Source: Mangrovimonas cancribranchiae (lineage in GTDB: Bacteria; Bacteroidota; Bacteroidia; Flavobacteriales; Flavobacteriaceae). From it: DNA of 64,000 nt. The position numbers were made by a program, and so were the translations under genes. The stretch lies in assembly GCF_037126245.1 (NCBI RefSeq), contig NZ_CP136925.1, positions 2,744,001-2,808,000 on the forward strand. The letters run 5' to 3'. Below the pieces are notes generated by a model that was not told the origin of the DNA, did no database searches, and worked only from the letters and a program-made list of their open reading frames with translations. The number at the start of each line of letters is the position of its first letter. The stretch's first letter is position 1. Below, in pieces: positions 27,126-37,280 of the stretch.

Positions 27126-27475
27126 TTTAGTTCTTTAAAATAAAACTCATTAACTTTCCATGTACTAGAAACTTTAGTTAAAACTAAAACAATATTAGCT
27201 TTTCCTAACTTTCCGAACACCTTAGTTTCTATTTGCACCTCATTTTCTCCTACCTCATTTTTTCCTAAGTCTAGGCTGCCAGTAGGAAACATCCCAAATT
27301 TTTCTACATCACCTATACGACTTATCACTTTCTCATTAGTATTTATATATTGCTTGGCAAATGTATAAGCTTTAGAATTTGATATTTTAATCACTGAACC
27401 TATAAAAGCAATTGAAAAAAGCAATACAAGTCCAATCAAAGCATAAAGTGATGTTCTTAAAAATGTTTTATTCAT
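27122..27475 (-). CDS. Coa1-like single-pass membrane protein
   Basis: The 117-residue protein has one membrane helix (residues 10-32) and an extracytoplasmic domain of ~80 residues with KAYTFAKQYINTNEKV and a later W in STWKVNEFYFK. This is the pattern of the cytochrome c oxidase assembly factor Coa1/Tim21-like family, which is widespread in Bacteroidota as small proteins of unclear role. The start overlaps the preceding gene by 4 bp. Whether it aids respiratory complex assembly is not known. Confidence 0.5.
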   Translation of the reverse strand: MNKTFLRTSLYALIGLVLLFSIAFIGSVIKISNSKAYTFAKQYINTNEKVISRIGDVEKFGMFPTGSLDLGKNEVGENEVQIETKVFGKLGKANIVLVLTKVSSTWKVNEFYFKELK

Positions 27476-28194
27476 ATGTCTTTTTTTATTGAAGAGCCTA
27501 TATCTAAAAATAATAGTTTATATTTTTCCATATCTTCTTTTAAAGATGTTGCTCCAAAAATAATAACATTACCTTCATACTCTAAATACATTATTAACCC
27601 TCCTATATTAATGGAATCTACATTAACAATGTATTTTAAGTAATAATTTTTTTCTACTAATTCATTTTTTAAAAAATCTAATAATATATAATTAGGTTCA
27701 TTTTTAAAGCTATTTATTTCTTTTAAAAGATAATCTTTAAATGTTACTTCGCCTAACTTTTCATAAGAAACGACAAAAGTAGGGTAATAAACAGTACTTG
27801 AATCTATAATTTTAGAAGCGGATAATAAAACATTTTGACTTGTATGGTCATCAGTAACATCCCAATTTTTTGGCACTTTCATTGATAAATCAAGATTTTT
27901 TAATTTAACTTCTTTATAATAATAATCCGATTTGTCTAATTCATAATATAAAGTATCATTTTTAAATCTCTTTACACTACTTAATTTCCCATTTTTGAAA
28001 TATTTCCAAATCCCTTGCTTTAACCCATTTTCTATCATGCCCTCTTTTAATAGGTTACTATCTACATCATACTCTTTAGATAAACCATTATAGTATTTAT
28101 CATCTTTACTTGATTTTTTTGTTTGCTCTCTTTTACAAGAAACAAATAAGTAAATAGGCAACATTATTATAATAATGTATTTTAATTTTTCCAT
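27472..28194 (-). CDS. MORN-repeat-like lipoprotein
   Basis: The 240-residue protein has a lipoprotein signal with lipobox FVSCKRE (Cys20). Residues 50-90 contain two MORN/YwqK-like units (GMIENGLKQGIWKYFKNGKL). The remainder is a domain with predicted alpha/beta content that recalls PsbP/DUF1795-type domains (LSMKVPKNWDV near residue 105). Enzymatic residues are not visible. It lies in an operon with two other envelope proteins, overlapping the next gene by 4 bp. Function unknown. Confidence 0.6.
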   Translation of the reverse strand: MEKLKYIIIIMLPIYLFVSCKREQTKKSSKDDKYYNGLSKEYDVDSNLLKEGMIENGLKQGIWKYFKNGKLSSVKRFKNDTLYYELDKSDYYYKEVKLKNLDLSMKVPKNWDVTDDHTSQNVLLSASKIIDSSTVYYPTFVVSYEKLGEVTFKDYLLKEINSFKNEPNYILLDFLKNELVEKNYYLKYIVNVDSINIGGLIMYLEYEGNVIIFGATSLKEDMEKYKLLFLDIGSSIKKDI

Positions 28195-28197
28195 ATT

Positions 28198-28752
28198 TTA
28201 TTTAACCAAAACTTTTTGAGATATTAATGTCTTTTCGGAAATCAATCTTATTTTATCAGTATCACTAGTTTTCAAGTGTACAAAATCTTCTATAACCCCA
28301 TTAATATAGTTTTCCCCTCTTTTATTAAAACCCGTTTCAAAAATAAACCCTCTATTATTCCTTGCCAATATTGTATCTAAAGAAAAATTGTTCATTATAA
28401 ACTCTGTAGATTTTTCTTCTAGATATTTGTCACTAAACTGGTCTTTCATTTTATGAAAAAACAGAGCTCTTTCAGGATAACCTTCCGTGTATAAGTTTTT
28501 GGTAATAGTGTCAAAATTGCTCTTATATCTAATAACAACAATATATTCACTATCTTTTAGTATTTCATTGACCCTTTCTTGATTTTTATCATAAAATTCA
28601 AATGAAAAAACCTGACTTGACTTTTTTAAAACTTGGGGGGTTCCTTTTTCATTGCTTTCATTTTTACAATTAAATACAACTAATAAAAATGTAATAAAGA
28701 CTATGAAATTATAATTAAATTTTGTCATATCTGGAATATTGTTTTTTTTCAT
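28198..28752 (-). CDS. Putative lipoprotein, function unknown
   Basis: This 184-residue protein begins with a longer signal region; the hydrophobic core IVFITFLLVVFNCKN ends at a lipobox-like Cys near residue 29. The mature part is rich in charged residues and shows no known motif. It is the first gene of the minus-strand operon 26915-28752, and three bases separate it from the MORN-like lipoprotein. The start is taken as the first ATG; an internal ATG at residue 9 is possible. Confidence 0.55.
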   Translation of the reverse strand: MKKNNIPDMTKFNYNFIVFITFLLVVFNCKNESNEKGTPQVLKKSSQVFSFEFYDKNQERVNEILKDSEYIVVIRYKSNFDTITKNLYTEGYPERALFFHKMKDQFSDKYLEEKSTEFIMNNFSLDTILARNNRGFIFETGFNKRGENYINGVIEDFVHLKTSDTDKIRLISEKTLISQKVLVK

Positions 28753-28777
28753 ACAACTAAACTTTATATAAATATAA

Positions 28778-28803
28778 TAAAAGGAGCCAGAATACTGACT
28801 CCT
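28778..28803 (-). terminator. Terminator of minus-strand island operon
   Basis: On the minus strand AGGAGTCAG and CTGGCTCCT form a nine-base-pair stem with one mismatch and a loop of four, followed by TTTT. It lies about 100 bp after the last gene of the DUF3871 operon (28904) and just upstream of the lipoprotein operon, so it separates the two. Confidence 0.75.
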
Positions 28804-28903
28804 ATATTATTAAGTACTCAATGACATTTTCAGGTGTTTTTTAGTAAGGCTGAAACCGTCTCAAAAGCTTGGTTATCCAAAATACAGCATAATAGCCAAT
28901 TTA

Positions 28904-29152
28904 TTACAGAAGAATATCAAAATGAAAATAGTAGTAGGGCTCATTATTAATTATATAAACCGTTTGGAGTGTATATGAAATTTTAACCATATCTACCTCC
29001 TGTTGCTGTCCCTTCTTAAGAGCCCCTACATTGTGCTTTAGAGCCACTTTAAATGGACATCTCAACGTTACTAGGTCATTCTTCCAAGTGAGTTCTAAAA
29101 TACTATAGGGCGAAGTATACTTAAGGAACCTCACCCATTCTTCATCATTCAT
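28904..29152 (-). CDS. Small protein of island module, unknown
   Basis: The 82-residue product is soluble, with several Trp and Tyr residues (SILELTWKNDLVTLRC, then PYYYFHFDILL). It has no recognisable motif. It lies 21 bp downstream of the DUF3871-like gene on the same strand and has a typical start. The position suggests it is part of the recombination module. It could also be a remnant of a larger gene. Confidence 0.45.
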   Translation of the reverse strand: MNDEEWVRFLKYTSPYSILELTWKNDLVTLRCPFKVALKHNVGALKKGQQQEVDMVKISYTLQTVYIINNEPYYYFHFDILL

Positions 29153-29173
29153 TTACTGTAAGTTTATAGATAA

Positions 29174-30154
29174 TTAATTATTTAAATACCTATTGGGTGT
29201 TTGATTTTTAATGCTATGACCTATTTCTTTCACAAACACAAACGCTGAAAGGGATCTATCCACAAAACTATCTATATAAGATGATTTGTTAGCTCCAGTA
29301 AACAGATTATACAATTGCCATAAACTAATCTTGCCTTCTGAATTAGATTTAAAGTTCTGGTCTTTATAAAATCCCTTAACTACTTTATTTATCTGTGAAT
29401 CGTTAATTTCTAACGATTTATCCAAATCATTTTTAACCCTCCTATAGGGTTGCATTCTTAACTTACCTATTAGGTGAGCAAATACTTCCTCTGTGATTGT
29501 GTAATTATTAAAGTCTTGCAGAGTCATTAAATGCTCTTCTAAAGAATGTCCTTTAAATAAATCCATAACGGCTTTGCATAACCCCTCTACAGAACTAACT
29601 CTAATATCGCTTAAAAAGCCATCTGTTGATACACATAGATTAGTACAAACATTATTTCTAAATCCAATAAAAAGTTTAAATTTTTCAGGTGACTTTTTGC
29701 TATATAGGTTCTCTTGGTTATATGCTCTTACTCCTCCAATAGAGAGGTGCAACATATTACCGTTAATATTCCTTGAAATTGAAGGCACCAAAATATTAAA
29801 AGCCATTCGTTCGTAATATATTGTTTTCTCCTCTTCCAATAACTCTTTTGCCGGTTTACCTATTGCTGAGGGAACTCGTCCTTTAACAACATGACTAACA
29901 CGAATTTCTGGTGTCTGTATTTGCTGTTCTGGCATTATTACCTCTAGTTGATTTCTAAGAGTATTGATAAACTCATGGTGAGCTATTGTAGTTTCATTGT
30001 CCTTACTAAATACAGGAATAATACAATCTCTTTCTAAATGGTTTAATGTTACTTCCTCTGTGTTTGCTACAATAAAAGGTTGACGCTCTGACTGAGTAAC
30101 AACCTGATCGTCTACAACTACGTTTTGCGTTGTGATCGCTGTAATATCTTCCAT
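29174..30154 (-). CDS. DUF3871-like island protein
   Basis: The 326-residue protein resembles the DUF3871 family found in Bacteroidota mobile elements: an N-terminal region with EVTLNHLERDCIIPVFSKDNE, a central conserved-looking FNILVPSISRNINGNMLHLSIGG, and a C-terminal part LSAFVFVKEIGHSIKN. No membrane segment is visible. The molecular role is unknown; DUF932-like proteins with a similar regional layout are connected to plasmids and phages. It follows the ATPase gene after 4 bp, so the two are probably co-translated and may act together in DNA recombination or replication of the element. Confidence 0.65.
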   Translation of the reverse strand: MEDITAITTQNVVVDDQVVTQSERQPFIVANTEEVTLNHLERDCIIPVFSKDNETTIAHHEFINTLRNQLEVIMPEQQIQTPEIRVSHVVKGRVPSAIGKPAKELLEEEKTIYYERMAFNILVPSISRNINGNMLHLSIGGVRAYNQENLYSKKSPEKFKLFIGFRNNVCTNLCVSTDGFLSDIRVSSVEGLCKAVMDLFKGHSLEEHLMTLQDFNNYTITEEVFAHLIGKLRMQPYRRVKNDLDKSLEINDSQINKVVKGFYKDQNFKSNSEGKISLWQLYNLFTGANKSSYIDSFVDRSLSAFVFVKEIGHSIKNQTPNRYLNN

Positions 30155-30158
30155 AGTT

Positions 30159-31004
30159 TTAGGTGTTTTTTATATGATTATTTTTTTCTACTTGTAAAGA
30201 TTCTTTTTTAGACAGTATTAAGTTATATATCTTGTCTCTTAGTTCTGGATATTTGTTATAAATGTGCTTTAACCCTTCTAGGGTTTCGCATGAATTTATT
30301 TCTGACTTTGCTATATCTACTACAGCATTTTGATTACACCAGGTTAATAACTTTCTGCCTGTGGCTTCATTTATTACAAACTCTGGTTTATCTATAAATA
30401 ATCCTGTTCTATCTTTTGATGCTCTAGCTAAATGCTTATCATTTACTAATTCTAGGTTCACTGTTAGCTCATATTCAAAGCCTTCTCTCGTAATTTCTTT
30501 CGTACCGTGTTTAATTACTCGTGTTTTACCATTTTTATGAACATCCATTGAGTAATCTACTTTCCTTCTTACCGTTGTAATAACATGAGATGTAGACTCT
30601 AATATTTTATCTATAAAGGCTTGATGGCGTGGCGTTACTTTTGCCCAATCTTGGAAGCGTCCACCTAGTTGTTCTTGTATTTGTAAACAGCCACCTTTAC
30701 CGTTCCATTCATGAGAGATAGAATCAATTATAATAACCTCTATATTTGCTTTTTCACAAGTTTCTATAGCTGTTATATAACGTTCTGGTGAGTATGGAGC
30801 ATCAAGCTCTAATACATTAAAATCTCCTAAATCGGAGTATAGATTTGCACTACCATTTTCAGTATCTATAACGGCAACTTTTGACCAATCGCTTGTTATA
30901 CCATGCGCTAATAGTAATGCTGAATACGTCTTTCCAAAACCAGAGGCTCCAGACAGTCCTATACGTAATTTAACGTTACTTTTTTTAACTTTTAATAATT
31001 TCAT
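30159..31004 (-). CDS. Phage-type AAA ATPase (Sak4-like recombination protein)
   Basis: The 281-residue ATPase has a Walker A motif GASGFGKT at residues 19-26, Walker B VIIIDSISH near 92-100 and an Arg-rich segment VRRKVDYSM. The first 215 residues fit the phage nucleotide-binding family (AAA_24), which includes Sak4-like RecA-fold annealing proteins. A C-terminal tail of ~60 residues is helical. In phages such ATPases act with a single-strand-binding protein in recombination. The gene upstream (31054-31401) could supply that partner. Confidence 0.75.
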   Translation of the reverse strand: MKLLKVKKSNVKLRIGLSGASGFGKTYSALLLAHGITSDWSKVAVIDTENGSANLYSDLGDFNVLELDAPYSPERYITAIETCEKANIEVIIIDSISHEWNGKGGCLQIQEQLGGRFQDWAKVTPRHQAFIDKILESTSHVITTVRRKVDYSMDVHKNGKTRVIKHGTKEITREGFEYELTVNLELVNDKHLARASKDRTGLFIDKPEFVINEATGRKLLTWCNQNAVVDIAKSEINSCETLEGLKHIYNKYPELRDKIYNLILSKKESLQVEKNNHIKNT

Positions 31005-32074: not shown

Positions 32075-33055
32075 ATGTATTTTAATTCATTTCAAAAAGG
32101 AGAAAGCTTTGAATCCTACGTTTTACAAACGTTGTTTCCTGAAGACCAGTATACTTTAATCCATCGCACAAATTCATTTGAACAAAACCAAGAACGTTTT
32201 TCTGAAAACACCTTACAACCAGATTTTAAATTTAGATGCAAACAATCTGGAAAGGAGTTTTTTGTTGAAGCTAAGTTTAGAAGTGATTTTAATAACCATA
32301 ATAAACTTGAGGTTTTAACCCTAAAACAGTTTGAACGCTATAAAATGTTTCAGGAACAAGAGCAATGCCCTGTGTTTATTGCTGTTGGTTATGAAGGCTA
32401 TGCTAATGACCCCGAAAACCTATCCTTATTTCCTTTAAATGAATTTGAATACTTAAATGTTTACAGAAGTAAACTTAATGAGTTTGCCATTAAACACGAA
32501 CCTATATCCAGTAACAGACTAAAACTTGACGGGTTTTCTTATCAAGAAAAAACAGAGAAGAAAAAAGGCTCAAAACCGCCAAACACCAAAGTAATGGCTT
32601 ATTTATTAGCTACAATAGTTTTATTAGCTATTGCTTTTTGGGGATATTCATCAATAAACAAACGTGAAAGCTCTAATAACATAGAAAATATAGAAACGCA
32701 ATTACAGGGTGTTATTGGTAATTATTACTCTATTTTAGACCAAGGAGAGTTAAGTAAACTACCTGACTATATTAATCCTATAGTTGACAAATGGTATAGC
32801 AAAGAAAATTTAACGCTTGAAAGTATTATTAGCCAACAAAAAGACTACCAAAAAAAATACCCCACTAGAACCACAAAAGTATTATGGGACACGTTTTTAG
32901 TTGAACATGATGATAACGATTATATTACCACTTATCAGCTAGATTACAAGCTAAAACCTAGAGGGAGTCAACATTTTAAAAACTACAAGCTAAAGATTAC
33001 GTCTGTTTGGGGAAGTAACTTTAAGCTTAAATCTATGTTTGAGGATAGGTTATAG
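32075..33055 (+). CDS. Membrane-tethered PD-(D/E)XK nuclease-like protein
   Basis: Residues 1-150 form a PD-(D/E)XK-like domain: an upstream Glu in KGESFESYV, LQPDFKF as the PD strand and FFVEAKFR as the E-X-K strand. Residues 173-193 (VMAYLLATIVLLAIAFWGYS) are one membrane helix. The last ~130 residues (IETQLQGVIGNYYSILDQGEL...) resemble an NTF2-like or SnoaL-like fold, probably on the extracytoplasmic side. So the nuclease-like part is in the cytoplasm and is bound to the inner membrane. It is a single gene in the island. Role unknown: DNA uptake, defence or element biology are possible. Confidence 0.6.
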   Translation: MYFNSFQKGESFESYVLQTLFPEDQYTLIHRTNSFEQNQERFSENTLQPDFKFRCKQSGKEFFVEAKFRSDFNNHNKLEVLTLKQFERYKMFQEQEQCPVFIAVGYEGYANDPENLSLFPLNEFEYLNVYRSKLNEFAIKHEPISSNRLKLDGFSYQEKTEKKKGSKPPNTKVMAYLLATIVLLAIAFWGYSSINKRESSNNIENIETQLQGVIGNYYSILDQGELSKLPDYINPIVDKWYSKENLTLESIISQQKDYQKKYPTRTTKVLWDTFLVEHDDNDYITTYQLDYKLKPRGSQHFKNYKLKITSVWGSNFKLKSMFEDRL

Positions 33056-33483: not shown

Positions 33484-33491
33484 TAATTTTG
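33484..33491 (+). promoter_or_regulatory. -7 promoter element of TAC module
   Basis: TAATTTTG fits TAnnTTTG and is 29 bp before ATG 33521. No clear -33 element was found; the region upstream is AT-rich. Confidence 0.5.
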
Positions 33492-33520
33492 CTACAAAAA
33501 TAAACCTACAGGTTGATTTT

Positions 33521-34090
33521 ATGAAAATATTCCGTACATTTGACAAACAATATCAAGGTGTGTATCTAGCAAACTTTGTTAATTGTCCTTTTTATCAAAC
33601 ACCCGAGGAGTATGAAACAGAATTGGATAAAATACAAGATCAACTTCAAGATCCATTATTTGTACGAAATTTCATCAAATCTTCCAAGTCAGGATGGAAG
33701 AAAGGTGCATTTAAAAATCATAACTTAACATTTTTAGCAACCGATGTACTTCAAGAAGCTGCAGATTTGTTTGACAAATTAGATGAAATATGCGAAGATT
33801 CACAGAATGGTGATTGTTTCGAGCTTTTATTTGATGAATTTAAAGAACTATCAAAAACTGAAAAATACGATGACCCTGGAAGACGAAAAATGTACACTTA
33901 TGAAAAAGGTTCCTTATTGCGACTATATGGAGTTCTTGTTGGTAATAATGCAATTATCATAACAGGAGCAGGTATCAAATTAGTTGACAAAATGCATGAC
34001 ACTAAAGTCTTAGAATTAGAATTAGATAAAATGAATTATTTGAAAGACTGGTTAAAACAAGAAAATATAACTGACGCTACAGAACTATAA
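33521..34090 (+). CDS. Putative RelE/HigB-like toxin of a TAC module
   Basis: The 189-residue protein is soluble. The C-terminal ~60 residues read RKMYTYEKGSLLRLYG, then NNAIIITGAGIKLVDKM and a final helix (ELDKMNYLKDWLKQ). This strand-strand-Lys-helix order recalls RelE/HigB-type ribonuclease toxins, but with a long N-terminal extension. It lies one base before an XRE-type antitoxin gene and upstream of a SecB-like gene. This gene order is the known TAC order toxin, antitoxin, chaperone. I read the toxin role mainly from context; direct family identity is weak. Confidence 0.55.
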   Translation: MKIFRTFDKQYQGVYLANFVNCPFYQTPEEYETELDKIQDQLQDPLFVRNFIKSSKSGWKKGAFKNHNLTFLATDVLQEAADLFDKLDEICEDSQNGDCFELLFDEFKELSKTEKYDDPGRRKMYTYEKGSLLRLYGVLVGNNAIIITGAGIKLVDKMHDTKVLELELDKMNYLKDWLKQENITDATEL

Positions 34091-34091
34091 A

Positions 34092-34559
34092 ATGGGAGAA
34101 AACTTAAATAAAATAATTACCAAAACTGCTACGCAGTGGAAAACTAGAGCTAAACAAGATCGTAATAATAGAAGAAATATTACAAGAGCGCAGGCATTTG
34201 CATTAGAGTTAATGGATTATATGGATTTGCATAATATTAAACAAACAGATTTAGCAAATAAAATGGGAGTAAGTGCTCAACAGGTGAATAAAATATTACG
34301 AGCAAAAGCTAATCTAACTTTTGAAACATTAGATAAAATAGCTGATGCATTAGAAGTTAATATTCCGGCCCCAAAAATAAGAGAAATCAAAAGCTCTCAT
34401 TCCTCAATCGTACATTATTCAATGCAAATTGTACATAAACGTAAACATAAAGTTATAGAAGAAAATATAACATCAAAAAGAATAAATAAACAGAACGCAG
34501 TTTTGAATACTAGTATGGAAAACTTGGATTTATATACCTATACAGCTAATCAAATATAA
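34092..34559 (+). CDS. XRE-family HTH antitoxin with C-terminal extension
   Basis: Residues 33-92 are a clear helix-turn-helix (MDYMDLHNIKQTDLANKMGV, then SAQQVNKILRAKANLTFETL and the final helices of the domain). It is similar to HigA-type antitoxins. The ~60 residues after the domain (residues 95-155) are basic then polar and appear flexible. In known TAC systems such a C-terminal extension is the chaperone addiction region bound by the SecB-like protein. The gene starts one base after the toxin-like gene and is followed 8 bp later by the chaperone gene. Confidence 0.8.
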   Translation: MGENLNKIITKTATQWKTRAKQDRNNRRNITRAQAFALELMDYMDLHNIKQTDLANKMGVSAQQVNKILRAKANLTFETLDKIADALEVNIPAPKIREIKSSHSSIVHYSMQIVHKRKHKVIEENITSKRINKQNAVLNTSMENLDLYTYTANQI

Positions 34560-34567
34560 CGAAAACA

Positions 34568-35002
34568 ATGACTTACAATAAACTAGGTTTTGCTTTCACA
34601 GGTCTTCGAACTTTATCTTTTGCAATAATAGACAAAGCGTATAAAAAAACTGGGGAAACAAATCTAATGACAGGACTGGGATTTGGTTTGGACATTGACG
34701 ACCATGTAGTGACTTGCAATACTCGTTTTTCGTTTGAAAAAAAGAAAGATCAACCTTTTTTAATACTTGAAGTACAGGCATTATTTGAAATTGAGAAAGA
34801 TGATTTTTTAAATAAAGTGAAACAAGATGATGATACATATTTAGTAGCAAAAGGTCTTGCTATTCATTTCGCAGTTTTGACAATTGGTTCTGCAAGGGGA
34901 ATTTTACATTCAAAAACAGAAGGAACACCATTTAACGAATTTCTTCTACCTACTATTGATGTAAATAACATGCTTGAAGAAGACGTAATTTTCAAATTCT
35001 AA
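34568..35002 (+). CDS. SecB-like chaperone of a TAC module
   Basis: The 144-residue protein follows the SecB layout: beta-rich N-terminal part, FLILEVQALFEIE near residues 68-80 (compare the EVQxxGIF strand of SecB), a long helix VAKGLAIHFAVLTIGSARGIL, and LLPTIDVNNML near the end (compare the LAPVNFDALF motif of SecB). No membrane or signal segment is present. Its position right behind an HTH antitoxin with an extended tail supports a role as the dedicated antitoxin chaperone, as with Rv1957 of Mycobacterium. A general export role is less likely because Bacteroidota SecB genes are usually not in such modules. Confidence 0.7.
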   Translation: MTYNKLGFAFTGLRTLSFAIIDKAYKKTGETNLMTGLGFGLDIDDHVVTCNTRFSFEKKKDQPFLILEVQALFEIEKDDFLNKVKQDDDTYLVAKGLAIHFAVLTIGSARGILHSKTEGTPFNEFLLPTIDVNNMLEEDVIFKF

Positions 35003-35784: not shown

Positions 35785-36996
35785 CTATTTTAGCTTATTC
35801 TTTAGCTTATTAAACTCATTACTTACTTGTTTATTTACAACCTGGGCATAACTGTCTTGTGTGACCTTAATACTAGAATGCCCTAATAGTTTTGATACTA
35901 TTTCCATAGGCACATTATTAAACAATAATACTGTAGAGGCAAATGTACGTCTAGCTACGTGAGTTGTAAGCCTTTTATCTATTCCTACAATATCTGCTAC
36001 TTCTTTAAGATAAGAGTTATATTTCTGGTTGCTAATACAACTAAACACTTCTTCTTTACTATTATTCTGGCGAGTTAACTTAATGATGGCTAACGCCTGT
36101 TCTAATAATGGTATAGATAGCTTTTTATTAGTTTTTTGTCTAGTCATTTCTATCCATAAATTACCATCAAATCCTAAAACTATATTCTTACGTTTTAGAT
36201 TAACTACCTCTTTGTAAGCTAGTCCAGTATAACATGAGAATAAAAACATGTTTTTAACACGGTTTAATCTCTCCTGTGAAAACGTGTGGTTTTCTAAAGC
36301 TTGAAGCTCTTCATTATCTAAAAAAACAATGTCTTTTTTAATTCTCTTTGCCTTATATAACAAGAAAGGGTCTTTTTCTAGGTAATGTTCTGAAACAGCC
36401 ACTTTAACTATTTTTCTAAAGCGCTGTAACTTTTTATTAATGGTGATTTGTTTAATCTCCTTAACTACTTTAAAGTAATACTCCAGTTCTGTTAAAAAGT
36501 TTGGTTCTAACTTTTTTAAGGGGATATCATTGGTCTTGTACTTCCATTTTATAAAAGATTTTATGTCCATTTTCACATAGCTATATTTATTCCAAGTTAC
36601 CTGCTTTATATCCTTTCCTACAAGGGTTTTAAGCTTATTTAAGTACACTTCAAAGTATTCAACCACATTGTGTTCTTTTTCTAGTTTTTCACCTTTATAA
36701 AGCCTGTAAACGTCATCCACAGTAAAGCTATATTCTTGAACTTGAAGCATTAAAAAAGCCCTATTAATTTTGGTTTTAATAAGGCTTAATTGTGTATTTA
36801 TTTCATCTCTATTAGGAGCTGGTGGTTTCACCTGTTGTTTCTTGCTATTCCAATAACTAGGATTTACAAATTGTCCTGTACTAAATACTTTTCTTTTTTT
36901 GTTATATGTCAGACGACATACAAGAGAAGCTTTGTTATCTTTTCTTATTCTACTCTTAGATATCACAAATAGAATATTTAATTTTATTGAATTCAT
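35785..36996 (-). CDS. Tyrosine recombinase (IntDOT-like integrase)
   Basis: The start is taken at ATG 36996, giving 403 residues with an arm-binding-like N-terminus (IRKDNKASLVCRLTYNKKRK, then the FVNPSYWNSKKQQ segment). The catalytic part has CYTGLAYKEV where the first Arg would be, so the first Arg is missing as in IntDOT of CTnDOT. Other residues are present: Lys in RQKTNKK, HVARRTF (His-X2-Arg), LGHSS (His) and the nucleophile Tyr in DSYAQV. It lies 210 bp from the 3' end of tRNA-Asn, the expected place for an integrase. It probably moved the island. Confidence 0.9.
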   Translation of the reverse strand: MNSIKLNILFVISKSRIRKDNKASLVCRLTYNKKRKVFSTGQFVNPSYWNSKKQQVKPPAPNRDEINTQLSLIKTKINRAFLMLQVQEYSFTVDDVYRLYKGEKLEKEHNVVEYFEVYLNKLKTLVGKDIKQVTWNKYSYVKMDIKSFIKWKYKTNDIPLKKLEPNFLTELEYYFKVVKEIKQITINKKLQRFRKIVKVAVSEHYLEKDPFLLYKAKRIKKDIVFLDNEELQALENHTFSQERLNRVKNMFLFSCYTGLAYKEVVNLKRKNIVLGFDGNLWIEMTRQKTNKKLSIPLLEQALAIIKLTRQNNSKEEVFSCISNQKYNSYLKEVADIVGIDKRLTTHVARRTFASTVLLFNNVPMEIVSKLLGHSSIKVTQDSYAQVVNKQVSNEFNKLKNKLK

Positions 36997-37165
36997 TTTT
37001 CTTAAAATTTTAGTGATTTTGTCACAGTAGAAAAACTGCAACCTTTTAATTTTTAGACTGCAACCTTTTTTGTAGCCTTTTTTTAATAGAAATAAGAAAT
37101 AATCTAACTTGTTGAAGAAAATGCAATCAATGCAGTTAGTGCAGTTAAACCTAAGTATTGCGTAC

Positions 37166-37198
37166 AAAAAAAGCCTCTACATTGTTGTAAAGGCTTTT
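37166..37198 (-). terminator. Terminator downstream of tRNA-Asn
   Basis: On the minus strand AAAAGCCTTTACA and TGTAGAGGCTTTT form a stem with a loop of four to five and a T7 tail. It is directly 3' of the tRNA gene and so ends the tRNA transcript. Confidence 0.85.
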
Positions 37199-37206
37199 GT
37201 TATTTG

Positions 37207-37280
37207 CTCCTCAGGTTGGGCTCGAACCAACGACCCTCTGATTAACAGTCAGATGCTCTAACCAACTGAGCTACTGAGGA
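37207..37280 (-). tRNA. tRNA-Asn(GTT)
   Basis: On the minus strand the gene reads TCCTCAG...CTGAGGA (perfect 7-bp acceptor stem), with the D-loop GTTGGTTAGAGC, anticodon loop CTGTTAA (anticodon GTT), T-loop GGTTCGAGCCC and a G discriminator base. CCA is not encoded. The 3' end faces the integrase gene, which makes it the probable attachment site of the island. A direct repeat of this end was not found at the other border. Confidence 0.95.

Follow-up and report, generated by a model that had tools for sequence, protein, structure and literature searches.

A compact set of three genes lies on the plus strand of the window (the whole 64,000-nucleotide stretch of DNA analysed here). A palindrome runs up to the start codon of the first gene, and the three products, here called T, A and C, have the predicted character of a toxin, an antitoxin and a chaperone. 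The features are as follows.

33484-33491, plus strand: candidate -7 promoter element, TAATTTTG, in a conserved stretch upstream of the operator
33497-33520, plus strand: palindromic operator, AAAATAAACCTACAGGTTGATTTT, abutting the toxin ATG; presumed site of the XRE antitoxin
33521-34090, plus strand: T, an open reading frame of 189 residues; toxin of HigB/RelE fold by structure prediction
34092-34559, plus strand: A, 155 residues, with a body (residues 1-92) that holds the helix-turn-helix (residues 41-91); XRE-family antitoxin
34368-34556, plus strand: tail of A, residues 93-155, ending ...YTYTANQI; putative chaperone-addiction (ChAD) segment
34568-35002, plus strand: C, 144 residues; toxin-antitoxin-chaperone (TAC) chaperone of predicted SecB fold, PADLOC family PDC-M64C

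The original prediction of three tightly spaced genes at 33521-35002 was borne out for all three reading frames, which lie on one strand with only 1 bp between T and A and 8 bp between A and C. Orthologues from five other organisms keep the T-A-C order at near-identical spacing. Among close relatives, dN/dS was ~0.08-0.09 for T, 0.07-0.14 for the body of A, 0.14-0.38 for its tail and 0.02-0.11 for C, values in which several pairs are near saturation at synonymous sites. The conserved order and spacing and these ratios indicate that T, A and C are real genes. The complete 3.09 Mb genome holds a single copy of C.

Predicted folds and the antitoxin tail

The AlphaFold2 model of C, built from an 80-row alignment, had a mean pLDDT of 94.2 and showed four strands followed by two helices. 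Its best Foldseek match in the PDB was 5mtw (E=4.1e-4, probability 1.00), which is Rv1957, the TAC chaperone of Mycobacterium tuberculosis, in a structure with a ChAD peptide; SecB came next. With VIA-align the model scored Z 10.3 against Escherichia coli SecB and 8.7 against Rv1957 (5mtw), while unrelated rows reached at most 5.3. These model comparisons assign C to the SecB fold, as had been proposed for the third gene together with a structural check against SecB and Rv1957. At the level of sequence, searches with C, profiles included, drew nothing significant from Pfam, NCBIfam or PDB sequences, and the Pfam SecB profile PF02556 matched neither C nor its 80 aligned members; nor was a canonical SecB (PF02556) found anywhere in the 3.09 Mb genome. 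Among PADLOC profiles, C matched PDC-M64C (PDLC04763; E=5e-9, residues 15-138 on profile positions 18-142 of 146), a profile matched by all 80 aligned chaperones. The PADLOC CmdC profile PD-T4-9_C was matched by 8 of the 80 (best E=2.3e-5).

For T, the AlphaFold2 model (pLDDT 89.4) was closest by VIA to Streptococcus pneumoniae HigB (6af3), with Z 7.9 over 115 residues, and it scored Z 6.8 against the M. tuberculosis TAC toxin HigB1 (7awk). The matches listed, 50 rows, were RelE/ParE/HigB-fold proteins. On the strength of this model T belongs to a known toxin-antitoxin toxin fold, RelE/HigB-like, the best Z being only moderate. The expected resemblance of the first gene product to HigB was thus recovered. 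The long N-terminal extension ascribed to it was not: the structural matches cover residues 11-182, which places the additional length in insertions within the HigB fold and leaves no separate N-terminal domain.

Three residues, R134, Y136 and K153, do not vary across 70 toxin sequences, and K123 hardly does. In a profile alignment of T with Gp49/HigB, a match not itself significant (probability <=14%), R134 and K153 fell on the conserved arginine and lysine. HigB1 requires R77 and K95 for toxicity (PMC9098466), and the Gp49 alignment and a similar spacing suggest that R134 and K153 of T correspond to them. From the HigB-like fold and the matched residues, T probably acts as a HigB/RelE-type endonuclease that cuts mRNA on the ribosome. 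Sequence searches with T in Pfam, NCBIfam and PDB sequences, profiles included, were likewise without significant result, and no toxin-antitoxin toxin family was found among the Pfam matches listed for its 70 relatives. The PADLOC profile PDC-M64B (PDLC04756) matched the window T weakly (E=0.0046 over 47 residues) and 61 of the 70 homologous toxins, with a best E of 5.9e-40. For T and C alike, relationships emerged only from fold comparison and PADLOC profiles.

The description of A as an XRE antitoxin with a tail of ~60 residues proved accurate. HTH_3 covers residues 41-91 (E=4.9e-12), ~63 residues remain after it, and we count the 63 residues after residue 92 as the tail; several PDC-M64 helix-turn-helix profiles of PADLOC also match. 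The tail is a C-terminal extension at the ChAD position, beyond the DNA-binding domain, and in the family such tails run to 40-88 residues. It is variable and less constrained than the body, yet under purifying selection among close relatives.

We then asked what the ends of these tails have in common. Alanine is the C-terminal residue of 42/77 family antitoxins. As a control for protein ends we used the other two proteins of these loci, toxin and chaperone: in a non-redundant set, 17/33 antitoxins end in alanine, compared with 0/30 toxins and 1/33 chaperones (Fisher p ~1e-6 and ~1e-5). Two family antitoxins end in GEGNYALAA and GEANFALAA, near-copies of GENNYALAA, the tag encoded by the genome's own tmRNA. 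The antitoxin CmdA has an LAA end and undergoes ClpP-dependent degradation when its chaperone is absent (PMC11618068). By analogy, the alanine and tmRNA-tag-like ends are consistent with a C-terminal (ClpXP) degron guarded by the chaperone, which is the simplest reading. The window antitoxin ends in TANQI, which is not of the alanine type, and because its clade ends mostly in T-A-x-Q-I, the degron claim holds for the family and not certainly for the window copy.

Coevolution was assessed over 48 loci from which near-duplicates had been removed. T correlated with the body of A (partial r 0.62), chiefly with the first 36 residues of that body (0.55), and its partial r with the tail was about 0, a pattern that fits a body that meets T and a tail that does not. 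Between tail and C the partial r was 0.20 (5-95% range 0.11-0.28), about level with T and C (0.23), a weak indication that the tail contacts C. An apparently strong tail-C signal (partial r 0.49) was set aside, as it fell to 0.20 once near-duplicates were removed.

A conserved operator at the toxin start codon

At 64 of 76 loci the palindrome core AAATAAACCTAYAGGTTGATTT lies by the start codon of the toxin, mostly at an identical distance, and it is kept even where the proteins are only 25-40% identical. Elsewhere in the loci the background was 0.0018 per 120 bp, and this site is the sole copy of the degenerate core without mismatch in the 3.09 Mb genome. In three loci (L069, L073 and L109) the operator is inverted; this is compatible with recognition as DNA by a symmetric dimer, rather than with an RNA signal. 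Its conservation, position and single genomic copy argue for autoregulation by A, which likely acts on the operon through the palindrome. Upstream of the operator, the stretch GTTAATTTT is conserved in most aligned close relatives and includes TAATTTTG, a candidate Bacteroidota -7 element of the TAnnTTTG type and which may have promoter activity. A scan with the sigma-70 consensus, which is ill-suited to Bacteroidota, gave no excess of promoters or terminators.

The exact operator 21-mer also occurs on 12 viral contigs (L163-L174) with no T, A or C behind it, so the operator is not exclusive to TACs. Two different settings among these contigs share ~31 bp around the site. Several inspected copies lie between genes or at gene ends and resemble a short terminator hairpin, perhaps a small terminator. 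We dropped the idea of an operator decoy, given the intergenic or gene-end position and, in several cases, the terminator-like form of these copies.

Relatives, genomic surroundings and restriction operons

The chaperone alignment, run against 84,980 species genomes, gave 140 confirmed relatives, of which 80 were kept, almost all from Bacteroidota and one labelled Chlorobiota. With one viral contig from a separate scan, they made up 81 loci. A homologous antitoxin stands in the same place in 79 of the 81. Directly upstream of the antitoxin, 75 loci have a candidate reading frame, homologous to T (E<=1e-3) in 74; the homology is weak in L063, L092 and L113. Exceptions to the T-A-C order mostly fall at contig ends or in broken genes, neither of which accounts for L088.

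In an independent sample searched with the PADLOC profile, 38 of 395 genomes of the class (~10%) carried C. Thirty loci from it and one on a Persicobacter psychrovividus plasmid formed a distant set of 31, in which antitoxin homologues were present at 30 loci and toxin homologues upstream, in the same order, at 24. The survey of co-occurrence that had been suggested thus found the three genes together in nearly all of the 80 relatives and in 24 of the 31 distant loci. By its profile matches the T-A-C family is PADLOC PDC-M64, an unnamed defence candidate without a mechanism; a literature search found no paper using the term PDC-M64. The proposal of a new TAC branch in Bacteroidota therefore stands at the sequence level and needs amending in that the family is already a PADLOC candidate.

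Two members of the family deserve separate mention. The viral contig (IMGVR_UViG_3300028864_000112, classed viral) carries a family TAC at L113:5068-6420, with a toxin that matches T weakly. In Gelidibacter salicanalis (L036:5344-6435) the TAC is decayed: it has lost the toxin and the antitoxin's first half, the antitoxin tail now forms an in-frame fusion with the N-terminus of a YgjP-like metallopeptidase, and the chaperone gene behind it is intact.

Type I specificity subunits made up 9 of the 128 neighbouring proteins of 36 loci, and phage integrases were also present; neither was found among the matches listed for random regions of related genomes. Using purpose-built HsdM, HsdS and HsdR profiles, we found a type I restriction gene within ~6 kb at 29/81 loci and in 0/12 control regions. 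At 15 of the 81 loci (L057, L059, L067, L074, L079, L080, L082, L085, L086, L094, L104, L107, L108, L111 and L112) the TAC sits between hsdS (or hsdM) and hsdR on the same strand, usually with tens of bases between genes. On the chaperone tree this embedded state takes 6 changes, and well-supported branches force at least 3 of these, so embedding was gained or lost repeatedly. Inside some of these operons there is also a RhuM-family or REP-transposase-like gene. A literature search found no paper on TACs between hsdS and hsdR. A precedent for this position is DarTG2 in an E. coli type I restriction-modification system (RRDM island, PMC12255303), which likewise lies between hsdS and hsdR. Unlike the TACs, DarTG2 has two genes, a DNA ADP-ribosyltransferase as toxin and no chaperone.

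The window copy itself lies outside any restriction operon, a further difference from DarTG2; its closest relative linked to restriction-modification is L038, with the order hsdR-hsdM-hsdS-TAC. A tyrosine integrase (35785-37167) and a tRNA-Asn (37206-37280) lie near the window TAC, which is probably on a mobile island. No repeat of the tRNA-Asn 3' end of at least 13 bp was found as a left island border. On the minus strand, 27472-31004 holds genes that include a DUF3871 gene and an AAA_24 ATPase, probably one mobile element with the integrase. Upstream of the TAC, 32075-33055 encodes a 326-residue protein without a Pfam match. Its N-terminus may be that of a PD-(D/E)XK-type nuclease (PDFKF...EAKF); it also has a transmembrane segment and an uncharacterised C-terminal domain.

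A probable chaperone-controlled toxin and its likely mode of action

Gene order, the SecB fold of C, the HigB-like T and conserved co-occurrence support the original reading of the locus as a TAC module. The conserved operator, the alanine-type antitoxin ends, the coevolution of T with the body of A and the nearby type I restriction genes in the family also speak for it; the TANQI end, the weak tail-C correlation, the lack of a Pfam toxin match and moderate Z of T, and the position of the window copy outside a restriction operon speak against it. By its anatomy the window operon is a genuine TAC, diverged in sequence and half-listed already by PADLOC. We computed its gene order, folds, conservation and operator, the degron-like antitoxin ends of the family and the links to restriction genes. 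We put the probability at roughly 0.88 that it is a HigB-type TAC operon in which A represses the operon and silences T, C shields the tail of A, and T is set free when C is missing or occupied.

In such an operon, A would bind the palindrome over the operon start and repress transcription, and would also bind T and silence it. The tail would make A unstable, and C, presumably as a tetramer, would bind the tail and shield A from Clp-type proteolysis. Once C was lost or occupied by another client, for example a phage structural protein, A would be degraded; the freed T would cut mRNA on the ribosome, translation would stop, and with it phage growth. Toxicity, dependence on the chaperone, proteolysis, and triggering by and defence against phage are here expected by analogy with published systems (PMC5105189, PMC6377645, PMC9519451, PMC11618068). 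In the E. coli systems, what drives the antitoxin off its chaperone is a phage structural protein (PMC11618068; for HigBAC, as cited in PMC11980606).

The M. tuberculosis TAC (HigB1-HigA1-SecB-TA; Rv1955-Rv1956-Rv1957) shares with the window operon the toxin-antitoxin-chaperone order, a HigB-fold toxin with a long C-terminal helix, an antitoxin with a C-terminal extension and a SecB-fold chaperone. It differs in that the window proteins have no detectable sequence similarity to PDB chains, T is ~65 residues longer, with insertions, and the WHR-type ChAD motif of HigA1 (PMC6377645) was not seen in the tail of the window A. E. coli HigBAC is likewise a three-gene module with a HigB-type toxin and a SecB-like chaperone, and is cited in the review PMC11980606 as a phage-sensing TAC that defends against phage lambda. 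The same review files E. coli TAC HigB toxins under the HigB and Gp49 families, whereas T falls in no Pfam family. CmdTAC (PD-T4-9) has a SecB-like chaperone and an LAA antitoxin end like those of many family members (PMC11618068), but its toxin CmdT is an mRNA ADP-ribosyltransferase and T has a RelE/HigB fold.

We also considered that T and A might be a plain HigBA-like pair, with C an accessory or general export chaperone travelling along. C almost never occurs without an adjoining T-A pair, and although in a genome lacking canonical SecB (PF02556) it could in principle serve export, a family present in only ~10% of sampled class genomes (38/395) is unlike a housekeeping export chaperone. 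The weak coevolution of tail and C speaks for such a passenger, but the best Foldseek match of C is a TAC chaperone, Rv1957, and degron-like ends occur on the antitoxins and not on the toxins and chaperones of the same loci. We consider this arrangement improbable. That the operon is a leftover on a mobile island, decayed or without toxicity, as its place between the integrase by the tRNA-Asn and genes of unknown function and the existence of the decayed G. salicanalis relative might suggest, is more improbable still, given three intact reading frames under purifying selection, the retained predicted active-site residues R134, K153 and K123, and an intact operator and gene spacing.

Beyond a HigB-type TAC at this locus, we advance one wider idea tentatively, judging it rather unlikely as a whole: type I restriction systems may have enlisted this TAC branch again and again, placing it between hsdS and hsdR under its own conserved operator as a back-up for failed restriction, with an antitoxin whose built-in copy of the SsrA tag is hidden only by the chaperone. 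Specialists may find three parts new: the operator, the antitoxin ends that resemble the tag, and the embedding of relatives in restriction operons.

Taken together, these results give a structure-based identity to PDC-M64, a common unnamed defence candidate in Bacteroidota, where TACs are little studied, and T provides an example of a HigB-type toxin that has diverged beyond the reach of sequence profiles. The repeated placement of TACs within type I restriction operons ties chaperone-guarded toxins to restriction. With this placement, a nearly invariant operator and tmRNA-tag-like antitoxin ends, the family is suited to clean tests of how TACs work.
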